In this document: positions 15,399 through 42,999 of the stretch, piece by piece
Layout: each line of letters opens with the position of its first letter
Numbering within the stretch: position 1 is the stretch's first letter
Assembly: GCA_012838135.1 (NCBI GenBank)
Contig: DUPV01000057.1
Coordinates: forward strand, 1-42,999
DNA length: 42,999 nt
Direction: 5' to 3'
DNA from: Clostridiaceae bacterium
GTDB lineage: Bacteria; Bacillota; Clostridia; Saccharofermentanales; DTU023
The notes under the pieces: generated by a model
The model's input: the letters and a program-made list of their open reading frames with translations, nothing else
Told to the model about the DNA's origin: nothing
Database searches by the model: none
Translations under genes and position numbers: made by a program

Positions 15399-18300
15399 AT
15401 GCCCAAAGATGACAAAATAAAAAAAGTTATGGTTATCGGCTCCGGTCCGATTATCATTGGACAAGCTGCGGAATTTGATTATGCAGGAACTCAGGCTTGT
15501 CGAACTTTGAAACAGGAAAATGTCGAAACTGTTTTAATCAACAGTAATCCGGCAACGATTATGACGGATCGGGACATGGCTGCTCAGGTTTATTTGGAAC
15601 CTTTGCAAGTCGATGTCATTCAAAATATTTTATTACGTGAAAAGTGTGATGCACTATTGGCATCATTGGGAGGCCAAACTGCGATTAATCTGGCGATGGA
15701 ACTTTCCGAGTCGGGTTTTTTAACTGAACATAAAATCAAGCTTTTAGGAACTCAGGCGGCAGGTATTAAAAAAGGCGAAGATCGTGAAGAATTTAGAGAT
15801 GCGATGCTCAAAATTAACGTACCCTGCATACCCTCCGGTATTGCGCATAATCTTGATGAATGTGCAGAACTGGCTGAAGAAATTGGTTATCCGGTTATCG
15901 TTCGACCTGCTTTTACTTTGGGAGGCACAGGGGGCGGTATTGCTGCCAATCTTGAAGAGCTGCGTGAAATTGCCGCAACCGGTTTGGAAGTGTCGCGAGT
16001 TCAGCAAGTATTAATTGAAAAAGCGATTGCCGGTTGGAAAGAAATCGAATATGAAGTTATTCGTGATGCCAGCGGGTATGCAATTACTGTGTGCTCAATG
16101 GAAAATTTTGATCCGGTAGGAGTCCACACCGGTGATTCAATAGTTATGGCACCGGCTTTGACTTTGAATCCTCAAGAATATAATATGTTGCGTAATGCTG
16201 CCTTGCGAATTGTCGAGGAATTGCAAATTGAAGGTGGCTGTAATGTTCAATTTGCTCTACATCCTGACAACGGAGAATACGCGGTAATTGAAGTAAATCC
16301 GCGACTTTCCCGTTCGTCTGCTCTGGCCTCGAAAGCAACCGGTTATCCGATTGCCAAGGTTGCAACAAAAATTGCCCTGGGCTATACCCTGCATGAAATC
16401 CGTAACGAGTATACCGGCAAAGCCTGGGCAGCGACAGAACCTGTTATTGATTATGTGGTTACCAAAATTCCGAAATGGCCGTTTGATAAATTTGTTCATG
16501 CCAAGCGCAACTTAGGTACGCAAATGAAGGCAACCGGTGAGATTATGGCTATAGCGAGCACAACAGAGGGATCTCTGCTCAAGGCAATACGCTCATTGGA
16601 GCAAGGTTATGTCACATTGACAAAACCGTCAATGAAGAAACTTTCAGATGCAGATTTGATGGAAATTATCTTGCAAGTCGATGATCGCCGACTATTTTAT
16701 CTTGCAGAAGTGATACGTCGCGGCAAATCATTAGATGAACTTTATAACCTTACTCAAATCAGTCCGTATTTTCTCAATGTGATAAAAAATATTGTAGATC
16801 TGGAATCTGCCTTGACCAAGTTAAAAGATAACCGGCACCTGCAAGATTTGTCACTCCCGGAATTATTAGAAATCCCGGAATTAAAGCAATTAATAATTAA
16901 AGCTGCAAAATGGAGTTTTTCTGAAACGGCTTTAAGTAATTTACTGGGTATTGATCATTCATATATTCAGCAAATTGGGCAAAAAATCGGTATTAGGACA
17001 ATTTACAAAACAATTGATACCGGAGCAGGTGAATCAAAAGCAGAGAGTCCTTATTATTACGGTTGTTTGGAAATAGCAGGTCATAAAGACGAATTACATT
17101 CAAATTCCGGGTTGAACTCATATCTTGAATTAAAGTCTTTGAATGACAGAAATTCTGTAGATAACGAAGTTTCAGAATATAAGGAAATTTCAGAATCTTC
17201 CTCAACAGTTGCAACTGAAAAGAGAAAAAAAATAGTAGTACTCGGATCCGGTCCGATTCGAATCGGGCAAGGCATTGAATTTGATTATTGTTCGGTTCAT
17301 TGTGTGCAAGCCTTAAAAGCTGGTGGTTATGAATCGATTATTATCAACAATAATCCGGAAACAGTTTCAACCGATTTCGACACTTCAGATCGTCTGTACT
17401 TTGAACCATTGACGATTGATGATGTAGCCAGAGTTTTAGCTAAAGAGAATCCGGACGGAGTTATCTGTCAATTTGGCGGTCAAACAGCCATCAAACTAAT
17501 TGAAGATGTCAGCAATTTAGGTTACACGATTCTTGGGACATCGGCTGACGATGTGGATCGAGCTGAAGATCGTGCACGATTTGATCAAGTTCTCGAGGTT
17601 TGTCAGATCCCGAGACCGCAAGCTGCATCTGTTTTTACAACAGAAGAAGCTTTGACAGCTGCTTCTGAACTGGGATACCCGGTCCTGCTCAGACCATCCT
17701 ATGTTTTAGGCGGTCAGGGTATGATGATTTGTAATAATGCTCAGGCGATTGAGGAATACATGGCAATCATTAATCTTCAGACTCAGGAACATCCGATTTT
17801 GATTGACAAATATCTCAAAGGCACTGAACTGGAAGTTGATGCATTAAGTGATGGTACCAACGTTTTAATTCCCGGCATAATGGAACATTTGGAAAAAGCA
17901 GGTGTCCATTCCGGCGATTCAATTTCGATTTTTCCGGCATATATTTCGGATAAAGTTAGAGAAAAGATTGTTACCTATACCGAACGTTTAGCCAAAGAGC
18001 TAAATGTGATCGGTCTGATTAATATCCAATTTATTTTATATAACTATGAAGTCTACGTTTTGGAAGTTAATCCGCGTTCAAGCCGTACCGTACCTTACAT
18101 CAGCAAAGTGACAGGTCTGCCGATAGTAGATCTTGCAACCCGTTTAATGGTTGGTATCGGTTTTGAGGAATTGGGTTTGCCAACCGGTCTTTATGCCAAT
18201 TATCCCGGTGTCTATGCGATTAAAGCACCGGTATTTTCTTTTGAAAAATTACATAATGTGGATACCGTACTAGGACCTGAAATGAAAAGTACAGGTGAAG

Positions 18301-30304: not shown

Positions 30305-30883
30305 AGTGGTCTATATATAACTATCCGGCTTTCTCTCACTACTCGTTTACGGTTAAACCGCTCTGTTTTTGTGATTGGATATCCATATACCGGCTGTTTA
30401 ATTTGGCATTGTTTTTTAGCTCTACAAGTTTACCACCCATTTCAAGACACCTTTACACTATTCATTTTTAGACGTCTTAAGCCATCCGGTTTCAGAGAGT
30501 CTAACTGTGTTGTGCTTCGGTAGCCAGACGCCGATAGCTTTGACGCTTACGTTTAACCAGTTTACTACCCCATTCAAGATACCTTCAAACTATTCATTTT
30601 GACACGTCTTAATATATCCGGTCTTGGATAGTCCGGCTGTTTTCAACTTCGGTGGCTAAACGCCGATAAATTTTATGTTTACGATGTTACTGTCGCGATT
30701 TTACTTTGGCTTAGTCAGAATATTACTTTTGTTTAGCTTGAAAATTACTTAGCGTATTTATAATGTGGAAGGCATTTAAATGGAGTTTTAGTTTGAAATT
30801 GATATTAATACTTCAGACTGAAACTCATAATTTTTAATGAGCTATATAGAGAAAAAATTATTTTATAATAAAGCGAGGTGGGT
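30305..30883. other. Gene-free stretch before NRPS cluster
   Basis: No convincing gene is present on either strand. The left two thirds is less AT-rich than the flanks and holds a 132-bp imperfect tandem repeat (listed separately). The right third (30720-30880) is AT-rich and should carry the promoter of the ABC/NRPS operon, but I could not fix its boxes. No terminator with a T run was seen after the radical SAM gene. Confidence 0.5.
30428..30690. repeat. Two-copy imperfect tandem repeat, unit about 132 bp
   Basis: Copy 1 spans about 30428-30559 and copy 2 about 30560-30690. Shared blocks in order include GTTTAC[CT]ACC, ATTCAAGA or TTTCAAGA followed by ACCTT, ACTATTCATTTT, ACGTCTTAA, ATCCGGT, CTTCGGT and ACGCCGATA. 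Spacing is conserved within each unit. The reverse strand gives short basic peptides such as KRKRQSYRRLATEA that hit stops, so coding is unlikely. It may be a structured RNA or a remnant of a repeated element. Confidence 0.68.
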
Positions 30884-34082: not shown

Positions 34083-37000
34083 TTGTTAAAGTTAAGTAAA
34101 GTACAAGAACAGATTATAAATATAGATCGTTTTTACGGAAAAACAAGCATTAATACTTTGGGATATGAAGGTGTGTACAGAGCTGAATTTACTAAGGAAG
34201 ATATAGTAAATGGTTTAGTACAATTCATCAGGAATACAGATGCGTTACATGTTCAATTTGTTGAAAAAGATGGTGAGGTATATCAAAAGTTTGTTAAACC
34301 CACGAAAGTTGATATCGGAGAATTAGTTTTTTCTAATCAAGAAGAATTTGATAATTTTATCAATGATCGAATGAGTACCTGCTTATTCGGATACAATCAG
34401 CCTTTGTATCAATTTTATATTGTTGAGCGACCTGATGGAAAACTGTCGAGTTTAAGTTTTATACATCATTCTATTGCTGATGGCTGGTCAATAGTAAATA
34501 TTTATACCAAGCAAATGATAAATGTTCATCATCATGACAAGAATGTTAATACAGCATCATATTCTAAATATCTTGAAAAATTGAAACCTATCAGTAACAA
34601 AACAAAAGAACGTGCCCAAAAATATTGGAAGGAAAAATTAAGCAGCTACGACAAAACTTATGAAGTTACTTTAAAAGGGGAAGAAAATGACTTTAGCAGT
34701 AAAAGAGTAATTCGAAATTTAGATTTAGAGTTAGTGAAAGCTATTCACGAATTAGCTACCGGGTTAGATGTTACTGTACCGGTAGTTTTTTTAGCAGCTT
34801 TTATTCTTATGCAATCCAGACAATATTCAGAGTCTTCGTCAGCGATAGGTATGGCAACACTTGGACGCCATAAAAAAGAAAGGGATATTTTTGGATATTT
34901 TATTCAATATCTTCCATTTATAACGACAGTTGATGAAGAATGCAGTGTGGAAAAGTTTATTAAGTATATTTCAAAAGAACAATTTAAATTTTTTCGCAAC
35001 CTGTCATATAGTTACGAATCAGTTATGGAGTTAATGGAAAAAGTTACCGGCTCCAAGAAAAATTTGATATCCTCCAACTTTTCCTTTCAAAATGCATCTT
35101 TTGATGAGAATATGTGGAAAGTATATGACGATGCAAGATGGCTTAGAAGCACAGAACAAAATATACCTCTTAGTTTTTCAATTAGTAGTCGTGAAAATGA
35201 AGAGCACTATTTTCTTGAAATAGATTATCGATTAGCATATTACAACGAAGAAGATATAAACCTTTTAATAGATCGGTACATTCACATTTTAGCTCAGTTT
35301 TGTAAAAATGCCGAGCAAAGTATAAGTCAAGTTTCTGCGATAGATAAAGAAGAACAGGCAACTGTAATCTACAAGTTTAATCCCACTACATATGAAATTG
35401 ACGAAAGTGACGATGTTATTAGTGTGTTTAAAAAATCGATTAGAGAAAATCCTGATAAAATAGCTGTGACTTATCAAGAACAAGAGATGACTTTTAACGA
35501 GTTAGATAAATTATCTGATGATTATGCAGCTTATTTGATTAGCAGAAACATTTCAAAAGGTGATGGTATTGTTATCTATGCAAGCAGATCTCTTGAAATG
35601 ATTGCGGCAATTTTCGGAATTTTAAAGGCCGGAGCTTATTATATACCAATTGATATAAAAGCACCGGAAACGCGTGTGAATTACATTATTGCGGATTCAA
35701 ATGCAAAACTTGTTTTTATTTCAGAGGATTTAGAAACAGATTTTATACATACTCAAGGGGAAATTGTTGATTTAAAAAGTGTTCCATCAAGTACAAAGAA
35801 AATTAAAATTAAAAGCAATCTTGATGATTTGGCATATTGTATGTATACATCCGGTACTACAGGGAATCCAAAAGGCACATTAATAAAACATAGAAGCATT
35901 ATTCGCTTAGTCAAATATTCTGACTTTTTACCGTTTGATCAGGGCCTATCTTTTATGCAAATTGGCTCAATGGCTTTTGATGCCGCTACATTAGAGATAT
36001 TTGGCGGCCTGCTGAATGGCGGAAGCTTACACTTAGAGTCCGAAGAAAATTTATTAGATTTAATCATCTTAGAAGAAACCATGAGAAAAAGAGATGCAGA
36101 TGCTGTTTTTATGACTTCTAGCTTTTTTAATCTTTGTGTAGATAATCAGATTACTATTTTTGAGCCTTTAGACCATGTGATGGCTGGCGGAGATGTTTTA
36201 TCCGAAATCCATTTAAAGCGTTTTCGTGAATATTATCCTGATAAAAAACTTTACAACGGCTATGGTCCAACAGAAACTACAACTTTTGTTACAACTTATG
36301 ATATTCCTAAAGAAATTCCTAATCCTATCAGTATTGGCAGACCAATTGGGCAAACACGAGTTTATATTTTACATGGCAATCAGTTACAAGGCATAGGAAT
36401 GATAGGTGAGCTTTGTGTTGCCGGTGATGGATTAAGCCAGGGCTATCTCAATAATGATCGTCTGACAGAAGAAAAGTTTGTTGCTAATCCGATTGAAGAT
36501 GGAATTATTTATCGAACAGGCGATATTGCTTATTGGTCAAGTGAAGGACTTTTATATTTTTTAGGACGAAGAGACCAGCAAGTTAAAATTCGCGGGTTCA
36601 GAATTGAACTTAAAGAAATTCAAATACAAATTAATCAATTTGATAATGTTGCAGAATCTCATATTGAAGTTCGAGAGTTTGATGGATCTAAGTGCCTTGT
36701 AGCCTATATTGTCTTAAAAGATGATGAACAGAAAGAGGAATTTGTTTTTGATAATTTAAGAAACTATCTGTCAAAGCAATTCCCGGAGTACATGATTCCC
36801 ATTGCATACAAAATTATAGATAAAATTCCCTTAACAATGAATGGCAAAGTTGACAGGGCAACTTTGCCAAGTATTGAAATTCAAAGTCGCAGGTTCTATG
36901 AACCTGCACAAAACGTAATTGAAGCAAAAATTATAAATATATACAAACAAGGACTGGATTTAAAAACAATTGGACGTAATGATAACTTTTTTGAGCTTGG

Positions 37001-38237
37001 TGGCGATTCAATTAAAGCTATGAAAATTGCATCTTTGGCAAGGAAAGACAATGTTTATCTTAATGCCCAAGAAATTTTACGCTATCCTACACCTAAATTC
37101 TTGGCGGATTTTATTCAGGAAAAGGGGAACATGGAGGTAAAGACAAGTTTTTCCATACCAAATTTAAATATCTTTTCGGAATCATCAATATACCGTTCAA
37201 TTAAAACAAGTGATTCATCAATAGATAACTTATATAAGAGTATTGAAAAATTGTTGAATAAATATGAAGTTTTAAATCTAAAGATACAAAACAAAAAATT
37301 AATAATTCCCAGTCCTTCTGAAGATAAATCTTTTGAAGTTATTATTCTAAAAAACAGTTCTAATTTATTAAATATTTATGATTATGTAAGACATCATTTC
37401 ACAGTTCTGTTAGATGACAGAGGGGATGATAAAACTATTTATTTAATTCTGCCGGCAGCGATGCTGGATTCTTATTCTTGGGAAACTGTAATTAAAGATT
37501 TTGAAAAAATTTATAATAACAATGAATTTGAAGAAGAACTAATTAATTTTTCGGACTATTGTCAAGAAAATCCTGGTGAATTCTCTGTTTTCTCGCAAGA
37601 TAATTTAAATGAAAATTACTTAGAAACAGAAAGAAAAATCAAAACAAAAAGTTTGGTTGAACTAGGCATCAAAGACAAAATACGTGAAATTCAAGATGTT
37701 CATGATTTAGAGCTTACAGATATTTTATCAATAGCACTTTATTTACTGAAAACTCAGGATGAAAAGTTTGACTACACAATCGTTGTTTATTCTGATTTAA
37801 GGAAAGCAATTTATAAAAAAGCTCCCCGAAATGCAATTGGGCCATTTTCTGTTCCGAAAATTTTAAATATAAATAATGCGGAAGAAAAGAAGTTGTTTAA
37901 TTCTGTACGAACAGCTTTAAGTGAGCGTGATTTGTTGCAAAAATTTACTCTCTCAAATATTACGGGAGAAGAAGTTTTTGTTTTTGTAAAACAGGATGTC
38001 AATCAAAATAACAAACAAGCTTTTTTGAAAAACAGTATTGAATGTTCCTTAGATTCAGAACGATTGGTAATTAATGCATCAACCAGTTTTGATGATTTAG
38101 AAATTAATAATTTTATGGAAAGTTTAAAAACGAAAATTAAAGAAATTGCCATACTTGATCCGGTTGAGAGTATTGATTTTGAAGCTGATGGTTTGACTAT
38201 AGATGAACTGTTAGAAATGGAGGCTTTCTTTGGCTAA
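34083..38237 (+). CDS. Non-ribosomal peptide synthetase 1: C-A-T-degenerate E
   Basis: The protein is 1384 residues. The start is a TTG at 34083 with GGAGG 6 bases upstream. The ATG at 34068 lies before that site. Domains: condensation (about 1-430, HHSIADG at 128-134), adenylation (about 435-920; YTSGTTGNPKG at 588, FDAATLEIFG with D633, YGPTETT, YRTGD, NGKVDR), and carrier (phosphopantetheine S976 in LGGDSIKAMK). The last region (about 1010-1370) is epimerase-like, but the HHxxxDG site reads PAAMLDS at 1124-1130. My reading of the specificity residues is D-A-L-F-M-G-G-T-F-K, close to the valine code DAFWIGGTFK, so Val or Ile is a tentative guess. A condensation domain on the first module suggests an acyl starter. 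Confidence 0.92.
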   Translation: MLKLSKVQEQIINIDRFYGKTSINTLGYEGVYRAEFTKEDIVNGLVQFIRNTDALHVQFVEKDGEVYQKFVKPTKVDIGELVFSNQEEFDNFINDRMSTCLFGYNQPLYQFYIVERPDGKLSSLSFIHHSIADGWSIVNIYTKQMINVHHHDKNVNTASYSKYLEKLKPISNKTKERAQKYWKEKLSSYDKTYEVTLKGEENDFSSKRVIRNLDLELVKAIHELATGLDVTVPVVFLAAFILMQSRQYSESSSAIGMATLGRHKKERDIFGYFIQYLPFITTVDEECSVEKFIKYISKEQFKFFRNLSYSYESVMELMEKVTGSKKNLISSNFSFQNASFDENMWKVYDDARWLRSTEQNIPLSFSISSRENEEHYFLEIDYRLAYYNEEDINLLIDRYIHILAQFCKNAEQSISQVSAIDKEEQATVIYKFNPTTYEIDESDDVISVFKKSIRENPDKIAVTYQEQEMTFNELDKLSDDYAAYLISRNISKGDGIVIYASRSLEMIAAIFGILKAGAYYIPIDIKAPETRVNYIIADSNAKLVFISEDLETDFIHTQGEIVDLKSVPSSTKKIKIKSNLDDLAYCMYTSGTTGNPKGTLIKHRSIIRLVKYSDFLPFDQGLSFMQIGSMAFDAATLEIFGGLLNGGSLHLESEENLLDLIILEETMRKRDADAVFMTSSFFNLCVDNQITIFEPLDHVMAGGDVLSEIHLKRFREYYPDKKLYNGYGPTETTTFVTTYDIPKEIPNPISIGRPIGQTRVYILHGNQLQGIGMIGELCVAGDGLSQGYLNNDRLTEEKFVANPIEDGIIYRTGDIAYWSSEGLLYFLGRRDQQVKIRGFRIELKEIQIQINQFDNVAESHIEVREFDGSKCLVAYIVLKDDEQKEEFVFDNLRNYLSKQFPEYMIPIAYKIIDKIPLTMNGKVDRATLPSIEIQSRRFYEPAQNVIEAKIINIYKQGLDLKTIGRNDNFFELGGDSIKAMKIASLARKDNVYLNAQEILRYPTPKFLADFIQEKGNMEVKTSFSIPNLNIFSESSIYRSIKTSDSSIDNLYKSIEKLLNKYEVLNLKIQNKKLIIPSPSEDKSFEVIILKNSSNLLNIYDYVRHHFTVLLDDRGDDKTIYLILPAAMLDSYSWETVIKDFEKIYNNNEFEEELINFSDYCQENPGEFSVFSQDNLNENYLETERKIKTKSLVELGIKDKIREIQDVHDLELTDILSIALYLLKTQDEKFDYTIVVYSDLRKAIYKKAPRNAIGPFSVPKILNINNAEEKKLFNSVRTALSERDLLQKFTLSNITGEEVFVFVKQDVNQNNKQAFLKNSIECSLDSERLVINASTSFDDLEINNFMESLKTKIKEIAILDPVESIDFEADGLTIDELLEMEAFFG

Positions 38238-41200
38238 TAACAATATTCAGAATGCTTATGAGTTGTCGCATTTACAAGAAGGTATATTATTTGAAAAAAT
38301 ACGTGATAAAGCATCGTCAAATTATATACTGCAGCATGTTTTTAAAATTAATGGACAAATAGACACTGATCTAATAGAACAAGTGCTTGAATTATTGAGT
38401 TTAAAATATGAAAGCTTACGTACAGCTATTTATCGTGTCCGGAAAACCGGAAACTATTATCAAATAATATTACGCAACCGAAAAATTGAGTTCAACATTG
38501 TACCAATTTTGGAAACACAAATTGATGAGTATATTGAAAGAGATTTAGAGCGCGGGTTTAATATTGAACTTGATTCTTTAGTGCGGATCAATTGTTGGCA
38601 AATTGATAAAACCAGGTGCTATTTGGGGATTACTGCAGACCATATTTTATTTGACGGATGGTCAATGTCAATATTTTTAAATGATTTTCAAAAATTCTAT
38701 AAATCTTTGAGCTCAGGAGAAGATTTTGAATTAATTCGCAGTCAATTAATAACCGATCAATCTGCTACCGGTCTATATTCAAACTACATCAGATTTCTAA
38801 AATGTGTTGATAAAGAAGACAAAAAAGATTCTCAATTATATTGGTCTGATCTTACAAGCGAAATCAATGTTAAGACAAAAATTGATTTACGACATGACTC
38901 TTCAGGAAAAGAATTGAAAACAGATGGTCATTATCGCTATATTGTTTCGAAAACAATTTATCAAGACTTAAAAAAATTTTCCTATGAATATCATTTTACT
39001 TTAAATCATATTATGGAAAGTACTTGGGGATTATTACTCCAATATTATAATATTTTTGAAAAAACTTGTTTTGGCAAAATAGTTTCCGGCAGGGATATAA
39101 AGCTCGAAAACATCGAAAACAGCATTGGTTTATATATAAATACTAATCCGGTTATTGTTGAATATGATACGGATCTTACAGTCGTTGAATATCTGAACAA
39201 AATGCAAGAACAGGCTTTTAACTCAAAGAAACATGAAGTATATCCTTTACAAAAAATACTGAAAAACAGTTCCTTACCACAGGGATTATTTGATACGATT
39301 TTTGCTTATGAAAACTTTGAAAAAAATTCCTATGACGAAAATAATTTTTTAGATTTGACGACAGAAGTATATTGTCAACATGGAGCAACAGGATTTGAGT
39401 TTGCAATAACAGTTAATGAAACTGAAGAGTTGATTTTAGATGTTATTTATAATGCATCAAGTTATCAGCAAAAAGATATTAAAAAAATTGTGAAGAATTA
39501 CGTTTCGATTTTGGATTCTTTAATTGATAATCCTAATGGCAAGTGCCAGGATTTATTAAGAGCAGATGAAGATGAAGCCAGAGCGGTTATCAATCTTGTT
39601 AACAACAATATGAGTGAATCTGTTATTCATGCTTTTAATAAATACGTAGAAAAATATCCCGATAAGCATGCAGTCTTTTATGATGATATTGGTTTGAGTT
39701 ATCGTGATTTGGATTATCAGTCAAATAAAGTAGCTAATTATTTAATACAACATAATTATGCGGGTGAAGCAATTTTGGTTGATTGTGTTCGTTCACTGGA
39801 GCTGATAATAGCTATTATGGGAATACTCAAGGCATCATCTGCTTACGTACCTATTGATTCAAAGAGCCCCCAAAAACGTATTGAATATATCATTGAGGAC
39901 AGTCAGGCCAAAATAGTTTTAACAAATAGAGAATTAGATTACAGCAATGAAGGGCTGGAGATTAAAAATATTTCTGAAATCTTAGCCGGCTCTGATGATT
40001 CTTGTATTCTGAATAGTGATAGCAGCACACTGCGTCAAAATACACTGGCATACATTATTTACACTTCAGGTACAACAGGTCAACCCAAAGGAAGCATGAT
40101 TGAACATGGTAACATTTTACGACTTGTCGAAAATGTTACATACACAACTATGAATGAAAATACTCGTTGGTTACAAACGGGTTCTATTGCATTTGACGCT
40201 TCTACACTGGAAATTTTCGGCTCTTTATTAAATGGAGGAACTCTCTATTTGATGAAGGATTCTGATTTGCAAAATACAGAAGTTTTAAATGGTTTTATTA
40301 AGAAAAATAAAATTAACACAATGTTTTTAACAACATCTTTCTTTAATCAACTTATTGATTTAAAACCGGAGATTTTTGAGACGGTGGATTATGTGATGAC
40401 CGGCGGTGAGCTTGTTTCTAACAAACACATCAAAAAGTATAAGGAAAATTTTCCTTACAACAAGATTTACAATGTGTATGGTCCGACCGAATGTACATCT
40501 CTTGCTACGTATTATGAAATACCGAATGATTATGACATCATTTCCATTGGAAAACCGATTGACCGGACACAGGTTTACATCATGAATGGAAACCATCTTG
40601 TAGGATTTGGCGTTCAAGGAGAACTTTGTATAGCAGGTGACGGTGTTTCGCGAGGTTATTTAAACAAAGACGATTTGACGGCAGAAGTATTCCAGGATAA
40701 TCCATTTGGCCCCGGTAAGTTGTATCGGACAGGCGATTTAGCTTGTATACTGCCCGACGGGAATATACAAATAATGGGAAGAATTGATAAACAAGTGAAA
40801 ATTCGTGGATTCAGAGTTGAGATTGCGGAGATAGAAGATACCATTAATAAATATCCCGGTGTGAAGAATTCTGTAGTAATCGCACGTGAAGATGTTAACG
40901 GCAGTAAGTCTCTTTATGGTTATGTTCAAACTGATGAATTAAATGAAGCAGCTTTACTTGACTTCTTGGGAACTCAATTACCAACGTATATGATACCTTC
41001 AGGTTTTCAACAACTTGAGGACATACCTCTTACAATTAACGGAAAAGTTGATTACAATGCACTGCCTGAACCCGTGATTGAGCGGAGAACTGAATATGTT
41101 GCCCCTACTAATCAGATTGAAGAGATTATTTGTAATACCTTAGAAGAAGTTCTTGAAGTAGAATCTGTGGGTATTAATGATGACTTTTTTGATTTAGGTA

Positions 41201-41352
41201 TGCATAGCTTATTAGCATTAAAGGTTATTAATATTTTAGAAAACCAATATCAAATAACGTTGGAAATAAATGATATTTTTAATTGTACTACACCGAAAAC
41301 ATTATCTGATCAGATTATGTTATCGTTTCTGTCTGCTAAGGGAGGCCAATAA
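38230..41352 (+). CDS. Non-ribosomal peptide synthetase 2: C-A-T
   Basis: The protein is 1040 residues. The TTG start at 38230 overlaps the end of NRPS 1 by 8 bases and has GGAGG at 38219-38223. The N-terminus NIQNAYELSHLQEGILFE resembles the communication plus C1 region of condensation domains that follow an epimerase-ending protein. Its active site is DHILFDGWS (D137, H138), keeping the catalytic second histidine. The adenylation domain has YTSGTTGQPKG near 611, FDASTLEIFG (D656) and YGPTECTS. The carrier has LGMHSL with S993 (LGGHSL is usual). My specificity reading is D-A-L-F-M-G-V-S-L-K, which I cannot assign to an amino acid. It ends with a one-base overlap into NRPS 3. Confidence 0.93.
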   Translation: MANNNIQNAYELSHLQEGILFEKIRDKASSNYILQHVFKINGQIDTDLIEQVLELLSLKYESLRTAIYRVRKTGNYYQIILRNRKIEFNIVPILETQIDEYIERDLERGFNIELDSLVRINCWQIDKTRCYLGITADHILFDGWSMSIFLNDFQKFYKSLSSGEDFELIRSQLITDQSATGLYSNYIRFLKCVDKEDKKDSQLYWSDLTSEINVKTKIDLRHDSSGKELKTDGHYRYIVSKTIYQDLKKFSYEYHFTLNHIMESTWGLLLQYYNIFEKTCFGKIVSGRDIKLENIENSIGLYINTNPVIVEYDTDLTVVEYLNKMQEQAFNSKKHEVYPLQKILKNSSLPQGLFDTIFAYENFEKNSYDENNFLDLTTEVYCQHGATGFEFAITVNETEELILDVIYNASSYQQKDIKKIVKNYVSILDSLIDNPNGKCQDLLRADEDEARAVINLVNNNMSESVIHAFNKYVEKYPDKHAVFYDDIGLSYRDLDYQSNKVANYLIQHNYAGEAILVDCVRSLELIIAIMGILKASSAYVPIDSKSPQKRIEYIIEDSQAKIVLTNRELDYSNEGLEIKNISEILAGSDDSCILNSDSSTLRQNTLAYIIYTSGTTGQPKGSMIEHGNILRLVENVTYTTMNENTRWLQTGSIAFDASTLEIFGSLLNGGTLYLMKDSDLQNTEVLNGFIKKNKINTMFLTTSFFNQLIDLKPEIFETVDYVMTGGELVSNKHIKKYKENFPYNKIYNVYGPTECTSLATYYEIPNDYDIISIGKPIDRTQVYIMNGNHLVGFGVQGELCIAGDGVSRGYLNKDDLTAEVFQDNPFGPGKLYRTGDLACILPDGNIQIMGRIDKQVKIRGFRVEIAEIEDTINKYPGVKNSVVIAREDVNGSKSLYGYVQTDELNEAALLDFLGTQLPTYMIPSGFQQLEDIPLTINGKVDYNALPEPVIERRTEYVAPTNQIEEIICNTLEEVLEVESVGINDDFFDLGMHSLLALKVINILENQYQITLEINDIFNCTTPKTLSDQIMLSFLSAKGGQ

Positions 41353-42999
41353 TGAATTTAAGAACTGCCAACCCAATAGAGCAAAAGATTCTCAACATAT
41401 TAGAAAAATGTACGAATCAAAGAGTTGATTTAGATGAATCTTTGTCAGCGATTAGCTTGAACGAAGATAAACTGGAAGATCTGAAAGTAGTTATTAAAGA
41501 AGAATTTATTTTAAATAATCTGAATTTCGATTTGACTCAAGAGGATGATGCAGTCAGCATAGCTAACAAAATAATCGGTCAATTAATGAACAGGAAGTCC
41601 GGTTCTGACGTTAAGAAAACCAAACTGCATCAATCTTTTCATAAAGCGGAGGAAAAAGAATTTTATATGGCCAGCTCTCCGCAAAAGCGTCTTTATGCTA
41701 TTCAAAGAACGATGCCTGAAGATACAAGTTATAACATGCCTCTCTGTATGCGTTACAGAAATTTGGAAAATGAAAAAATATTAGTTGAGGCCTTTGAAAA
41801 AATTATACAAAGGCATGAGAGTTTACGGACTAACTTTGTAGAACTTGATGGAGAGATCTATCAAAAAATAAGGGAGCGTGTAGATTTTAAAGTTGACGTT
41901 CAATATTTGGATAATGAAAAAATTGAAGAGAAATTGGAGGAATTTGTACAACCATTTAACCTGACTGAAGATATCTTATTTCGAGTTTCACTGGTTAAAG
42001 AAAATCAAAAAGATGGATATCTTTTTATTGACAGTCATCATATTGTTTTTGATGGCGCCAGCTATGCAGTTCTTTTTGATGAGTTGAGAGATTTTTATGT
42101 GGGAAATCCCAAAACAGAATTAGCCTACCAATTTAAAGATTATTCTGAACATTTAAAAACAATCGACTATGAAAAACAGGGAAGTTATTGGCGTAAAGTA
42201 CATGAAGAGCCTGTTGAGGTTGTTGATTTGCCTTTGGATTCACCTCGTTCTGCAGATAATTCTAATGTTTCTCAAAGTATCACTTCTGAGTTTTCGGTAT
42301 TTGAAACAAACAAAATAAAGACCTATCTGCAAGAAGCAAAATTAACCCCATATGTGTTTTTTATTGCCAGTTTGATGATTATAGTTTCAAAATATACAAG
42401 GCAAGAAGATATTGTTATAGCTTCATCTTTCTCCGGACGAAAAAATGAAGAAACTCAAAAGATGATAGGAATGTTTGTTAATACTCTGATTTTAAGAGGG
42501 AATGCAGATGCTGATAAGGTAGTAAAATCATTTTTACTGGAAATAAGAGAGCATGCTCTGAATGCACAATCAAATTCAGAATATCCATATGAAGATTTGC
42601 TCTCAGATCTTAAAATATCAAACCTTGATCCTAATCGTAATATGCTGTATGACATCATGTTTACGATGCAAAATAATACACTGCCTGATTTTCATATCGG
42701 CGAGTTGTTATTAGAATCGCCCGAATTTGGAACGATAGAAGCAAAGTGTGATTTAGATATTGATGCATATGAAAATGAAGAGCAAGAATCCTTTGTAATC
42801 CATATTGCCTATAATAGTTCTCTATTTAAAAAGGAGAATATAGAATATTTTGCAGAACACTGGAGAGCACTGATCCTGTCGCTGATAGATAATCCGGATA
42901 AGAAGATTTCGGATTTAACTTGTCTATCAGAAGAAGAGAAGAAAAAAGTCATCTATGAATTTAATCCTGATCGTCAAAGTGGTCTGGAATACAGCCAAA
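41352..42999 (+). CDS. Non-ribosomal peptide synthetase 3, N-terminal part, cut by window edge
   Basis: The ATG at 41352 overlaps the NRPS 2 stop (TAATG), and GGAGG lies at 41341-41345. The visible 549 residues start with an approximately 90-residue carrier-like helix bundle (DLDESLSAISLNEDKLEDL, with S35 at the position of the phosphopantetheine serine). A full condensation domain follows from about residue 110, with C1 ASSPQKRLYAIQ, active site SHHIVFDG (H229, H230) and IASSFSGRKNEETQKMIGMFVNT. At the edge an adenylation domain begins (IYEFNPD). The condensation type looks like an L-L former. The N-terminal extra domain is unusual and may be a docking or additional carrier domain. Confidence 0.9.
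   Translation, partial: MNLRTANPIEQKILNILEKCTNQRVDLDESLSAISLNEDKLEDLKVVIKEEFILNNLNFDLTQEDDAVSIANKIIGQLMNRKSGSDVKKTKLHQSFHKAEEKEFYMASSPQKRLYAIQRTMPEDTSYNMPLCMRYRNLENEKILVEAFEKIIQRHESLRTNFVELDGEIYQKIRERVDFKVDVQYLDNEKIEEKLEEFVQPFNLTEDILFRVSLVKENQKDGYLFIDSHHIVFDGASYAVLFDELRDFYVGNPKTELAYQFKDYSEHLKTIDYEKQGSYWRKVHEEPVEVVDLPLDSPRSADNSNVSQSITSEFSVFETNKIKTYLQEAKLTPYVFFIASLMIIVSKYTRQEDIVIASSFSGRKNEETQKMIGMFVNTLILRGNADADKVVKSFLLEIREHALNAQSNSEYPYEDLLSDLKISNLDPNRNMLYDIMFTMQNNTLPDFHIGELLLESPEFGTIEAKCDLDIDAYENEEQESFVIHIAYNSSLFKKENIEYFAEHWRALILSLIDNPDKKISDLTCLSEEEKKKVIYEFNPDRQSGLEYSQ

Follow-up and report, generated by a model that had tools for sequence, protein, structure and literature searches.

The 42,999-base window analysed here is an entire contig (C37) of the source genome, that of an uncultured Clostridia-type bacterium, and carries what is probably the front half of an acquired nonribosomal peptide synthetase (NRPS) island. 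The peptide that this island most likely makes has four or more residues and an N-acyl group, probably a lipid tail. The cluster is real and undescribed, an assembly line of a familiar kind and of lipopeptide type, and its product is unmatched among the NCBIfam models, plasmids and genomes searched. Two additions extend the cluster as read from the window: the other end of the island with a lysine 2,3-aminomutase gene, which is well supported, and an unusual junction between the first two synthetases. The source genome comprises 2.05 Mb in 72 contigs (completeness 94%) and, because the window is all of C37, no sequence past position 42999 can be read from the contig. The first-pass annotation had described an ABC permease/ATPase pair followed by three NRPS genes overlapping by 8 and 1 nt, and this operon front was reproduced; the order is MacB/FtsX-type permease, ATPase, NRPS1, NRPS2 and NRPS3 (Table 1), with overlaps at 38230–38237 and at 41352, and the third NRPS is truncated at the contig end. 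The TTG codon at 34083 that had been chosen as the start of NRPS1 is backed by a GGAGG a few bases 5′.

Table 1. Features of the island front on the window (contig C37).
Feature	Coordinates	Strand	Remarks
Island left boundary and intergenic leader	30305–30883	.	empty-site homology with the sister species ends at stop codon 30304
MacB/FtsX-type ABC permease, about 817 aa	30884–33337 (start 30878/30884)	+	two FtsX domains, one MacB core domain
ABC ATPase, LolD/MacB type, 234 aa	33349–34053	+	ABC_tran 128 bits (Pfam)
NRPS1, C(starter)-A-T-E-like, about 1384 aa	34083–38237	+	TTG start, GGAGG upstream
NRPS1 starter-type C domain	34089–35360	+	PF00668 151 bits; HHSIADG intact
NRPS1 adenylation domain A1	35400–36893	+	code DALFMGGTFK
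NRPS1 carrier (T) domain	36912–37121	+	GGDSI intact
NRPS1 degenerate C/E-superfamily domain	37122–38234	+	HHxxxDG replaced by PAAMLDS
NRPS2, C(DCL type)-A-T, 1040 aa	38230–41352	+	TTG start; code DALFMGVSLK
NRPS3, truncated by contig end	41352–42998	+	about 95-aa helical N-terminal extension, then LCL-type C domain (41655–42947)
Possible carrier-protein-like adaptor without phosphopantetheine serine (weak)	41352–41636	+	

Pfam resolves NRPS1 into condensation (C), adenylation (A) and carrier (T) domains followed by 371 further residues, NRPS2 into C-A-T and NRPS3 into a C domain only. The repeated C, A and T modules of an NRPS assembly line are found in NRPS1, in NRPS2 and in a protein on a second contig, C46. 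The C motifs are retained (HHSIADG; DHILFDG, with the second His kept; HHIVFDG; HHIISDG), as are, in the translated C37 genes, the carrier serine motifs GGDSI and GMHSL, and all three C37 NRPS genes and the 1570-aa frame of C46 are open with their C, A and T motifs intact. Both specificity codes previously read by eye, DALFMGGTFK for NRPS1 and DALFMGVSLK for NRPS2, were recovered by alignment. The codes that the same alignment yielded for a reference cluster of fengycin type, assigned to fengycin from its gene context, were also plausible. The placement of the first code near that of valine also holds, since A1 sits among domains coded DALWLGGTFK and DAFFMGVTFK.

The site of the island is defined by comparison with G001, a sister species that shares 90% identity in carB with the source genome. 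In G001 an AmmeMemoRadiSam-type gene (88% identical to C37:29459–30304) is followed after 10 nt by a hydantoinase-like gene (87% identical to C64:8645–10366), and the outer neighbours on C37 and on contig C64 are colinear in G001 on both sides. DNA homology to G001 extends on C37 as far as the stop codon and begins again on C64 6 nt into the ORF; the two flanks are adjacent in G001, and the two contig ends therefore belong to one insertion. The island end of C64 is a low-G+C operon encoding a 235-aa ORF, a fused ABC exporter, a type II thioesterase (the sole PF00975 match in the genome), a lysine 2,3-aminomutase and an Sfp-type phosphopantetheinyl transferase (PPTase); the genes other than the 235-aa ORF are open and overlap as in an operon. 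Neither the permease nor the aminomutase occurs in any of the other six genomes available for the genus. A deletion in G001, rather than a gain in the source genome, is possible, but absence from the genus and codon usage count against it. We regard the island as acquired. Excluding unassembled gaps, it spans at least 17.9 kb on C37 and C64 and reaches 22.9 kb if C46 is counted; it offers a defined insertion site and an accessory gene set. The last part of the line and the release domain are missing from the assembly. At the inner end of C64 (L185), positions 15433–15558 hold the 3′ end of an IS-like element, of which about 125 nt recur at 95–100% identity on C6, C69, C56 and C5. This element is the probable cause of the assembly break and may have interrupted a gene, leaving its last 235 codons; given this copy at the inner end, the 3′ part of the cluster may be broken. 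The 235-aa ORF was tested as the tail of an epimerization (E) domain, which was not supported.

Apart from C37, the genome has C domains on a single contig, C46 (5,001 bases). It reads T-C-A-T-E and then the C domain of a new gene, the first 90 residues of which resemble the start of NRPS2, and direct sequence comparison found no overlap between C37 and C46. In a maximum-likelihood tree of 80 C and E domains (drawn from the source genome, from related genomes and from Bacilli clusters carried on plasmids), the C domains of NRPS3 and C46 fall in the LCL group, the support for C46 being weak (94/75), and the A domain of C46 joins the sister pair A1/A2 at just 26% support. The codon-usage distance from the NRPS genes is 0.43 for the C64 operon and 0.52 for C46, compared with 0.68 and 0.92 for host genes. 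By its architecture, its codon usage and this weak tree support, C46 very likely lies between C37 and C64; a position after NRPS3 would suit it, provided that one A domain is missing. The nearest relatives of the C46 protein (36–41% identity) are large NRPSs of another family within the order (G160:C50, G150:C9, G170:C1 and G171:C17), which share similar A-domain codes, for example DALWLGGTFK, but differ in architecture, carry C-terminal tails of their own and are not the same cluster.

These assignments can be set against other readings of the same contigs. If C46, the accessory genes of C64, or both came from another NRPS cluster, lost or unbinned, only the C37 part would form one cluster and no beta-lysine would be involved. 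Such a reading draws on the lack of a direct sequence link among C37, C46 and C64 and on the IS at the inner end of C64, but it has to contend with the empty site of G001, which places C37 and C64 on the flanks of one insertion, with a genome that has no further C-domain contig, and with matching codon usage; we consider it unlikely. A second alternative, also unlikely, is that the island is decaying and is no more than a non-functional remnant, as the IS insertion and the degenerate E-like domain would then indicate. The IS 3′ end does lie directly upstream of the 235-aa ORF, and the E-like motif of NRPS1 is dead, but the intact C37 genes and C46 frame, together with the operon-like overlaps of the remaining open C64 genes, argue against decay.

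The third alternative, which we likewise consider unlikely, concerns where the line begins. N-acylation had been proposed from the opening C domain, and the phylogeny supports this proposal insofar as it places the NRPS1 C domain among starter C domains of the N-acylating kind; starter C domains are a described class (PMC1894796). Specifically, it clusters with the fengycin starter and three further line-opening C domains (99/97). Forcing it together with DCL domains was rejected by the AU test (p 0.033), and forcing it together with LCL domains was borderline and not rejected (p 0.083); the domain also sits on a long branch. It could accordingly be an ordinary LCL or mid-line domain in a line whose loading A-T protein is encoded elsewhere, such as in an unassembled gap, and the product would then not be N-acylated. 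Against this stand the best tree, the position of NRPS1 as the first NRPS gene after the transporter pair and the host gene, and the PF00501 matches of the genome, none of which fits as a free loading module by base composition. One such match is an A domain at the end of contig C14 (L010), beside a PPTase and an acyltransferase-like gene; it was dropped as a part of the cluster because the sampled stretch has 51% G+C, in a genome of about 36–38% G+C, and C14 is perhaps a contaminant contig. Among other loci, L083, L084 and L080 have stand-alone A-T genes (about 620 aa) beside lines with a first-C-domain clade of their own (100), perhaps as loading modules in trans.

An acyl-starting line on C37 would next pass through the junction of NRPS1 and NRPS2. 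The 371 residues beyond the T domain of NRPS1 contain a domain that was absent from the first-pass annotation. Comparison with a C+E profile gave an HHalign probability of 72% and a score of 41, compared with 12–19 for shuffled sequences, and PF00668 (Condensation) touches the motif region at E=0.02; the domain closes with an acidic tail resembling that behind the E domain of C46. Its active site is lost, with VYSDLRK, as aligned by eye, in place of EGHGR in addition to the replacement given in Table 1, and from its sequence the domain should not epimerise. The AlphaFold2 model of this C-terminus was unusable (mean pLDDT 34). The C domain of NRPS2 clusters with C domains that follow E domains (100/97), as is characteristic of the DCL type, and its best PDB matches are TycB, SrfA-C and BacC, all of them C domains located behind E domains. 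The junction is an odd one, in which an E-like domain without the catalytic motif precedes a predicted D-accepting (DCL) C domain. A precedent exists in glycopeptide NRPSs, where C domains that follow an inactive E domain show altered stereoselectivity (PMC1894796). These systems share an inactive former E domain ahead of a DCL-like C domain, but belong to an actinomycete heptapeptide line, whereas the NRPS1 E-like domain is further degenerated and ends its protein. The junction may serve as a natural test of the strictness of D-selectivity, and of whether an E domain can persist purely for docking. Condensation-like tails of about 420 aa, with NHALWDRSS-like stretches replacing HHxxxDG, occur in several proteins of L083/L084 and of G160:C50 (L079–L081), a very large NRPS region with an 8463-aa open frame.

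The N-terminus of NRPS3 may hold a second handover element. In low-confidence structure prediction it consists of helices only (pLDDT about 50), the AlphaFold2 model of NRPS3 as a whole being unusable (mean pLDDT 36), and alignment to T domains gave a mean z of 2.0 (p 0.03). A PCP-like adaptor domain precedes a C domain in TomB of the tomaymycin system (PMC11186497), and the two have in common some 90 residues before the C domain, a four-helix prediction and no phosphopantetheine serine. They differ in that the carrier-domain likeness of the NRPS3 segment reaches only p 0.03 and its structure is not reliable; the assignment as a carrier-like adaptor is weakly supported. It is an unlikely reading that one line in an anaerobic Clostridia lineage combines two non-catalytic handover devices in making a beta-lysine-containing lipopeptide, namely a dead E-like domain retained solely to hand the chain to a DCL-type C domain and a serine-less carrier-like adaptor at the junction that follows.

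The beta-lysine prediction originates from the C64 aminomutase, which scores 566 bits against the NCBIfam lysine 2,3-aminomutase equivalog (cut-off 525 bits), aligns with PDB 2a5h over 352 residues (513 bits), and keeps both the cluster cysteines (CxMYCRHC) and the PLP lysine motif (DAPGGGGK). The location of the gene between those for the thioesterase and the PPTase points to a biosynthetic role; lysine 2,3-aminomutases at 57–64% identity are also found in more distant family members. None of the three visible A-domain codes (A1, A2 and C46) is a recognisable beta-lysine code, and at least one A domain lies outside the assembly. Literature searching on beta-lysine, aminomutases and nonribosomal peptides found no such cluster. 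Since C64 adds an exporter, a thioesterase, a lysine 2,3-aminomutase and a PPTase, the product is probably an acyl-peptide containing beta-lysine. In a colinear line, the Sfp-type PPTase would load the carrier domains, and the starter C domain would couple an acyl-CoA to a first, Val-like residue on module 1. NRPS2 would contribute a second, hydrophobic residue, NRPS3 a third, and the C46 module a fourth together with its epimerisation, with a further protein following. The aminomutase would provide the beta-lysine building block, the type II thioesterase would clear mis-loaded groups, and the leading MacB-type pair and the trailing fused ABC exporter may export the product or protect the producer.

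The permease matches FtsX (PF02687, 90 bits) and PF12704 (30 bits), and an FtsX permease with a MacB core domain beside a LolD-type ATPase constitutes a MacB-type exporter. Across the other 37 genomes of its family, no relative of the permease was found at E≤1e-20, and the best relative (32%) lies in another family of the same order. This permease/ATPase family is common in the order without adjoining NRPS genes. The claim that the cluster has its own exporter stands as far as operon position goes, but the same pair occurs in related genomes without NRPS neighbours, and it is therefore tied to the product by position only. In the intergenic leader, 30320–30550 recurs in dispersed copies at 79–88% identity, on C44 and twice on C61, and 30424–30683 is spanned by a direct repeat of 128 nt (76%); the repeats at 30320–30683 look like a repeat family of the source genome.

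The product was not recognised in the first reading, and the database comparisons agree. No equivalog-level NCBIfam match was found for the NRPS proteins of the cluster, and comparison with 72,556 plasmids gave no match at ≥60% identity; scanning 84,980 genomes for an NRPS1 pattern, which detects near-identical stretches only, likewise gave none, and the best NRPS1 relatives in 59 related genomes reach about 27–34% identity. By domain, the best solved-structure matches are the tyrocidine, gramicidin and surfactin synthetases (PDB 9bfd, 6mfz and 2vsq), which share the E-to-C handover between proteins but differ in domain order and specificity, at about 30% identity. The fengycin/surfactin-type lipopeptide NRPSs of Bacillus also have a multi-protein operon, a line opened by a starter-type C domain, and a protein ending in E followed by one opening with a DCL-type C domain. 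However, the fengycin and NRPS1 starter domains are only 22% identical, and the present cluster is unlike these systems in its degenerate E-like domain, its codes, the MacB-type pair in front and the lysine 2,3-aminomutase. To our knowledge, few NRPS products are known from strict anaerobes. The chemical prediction for this one, namely an acyl group, a hydrophobic start, a D-residue and beta-lysine, would be accessible to metabolomics or heterologous expression. A separate line at L075 (G066:C13, 11640–18734) has a starter-type C-A-T-C-A-T architecture with a thioesterase-like tail and codes DVWHFSLVDK and DFWNIGMVHK; it looks like an N-acyl Ser-Thr dipeptide synthetase, pieces of which are also present in G067.
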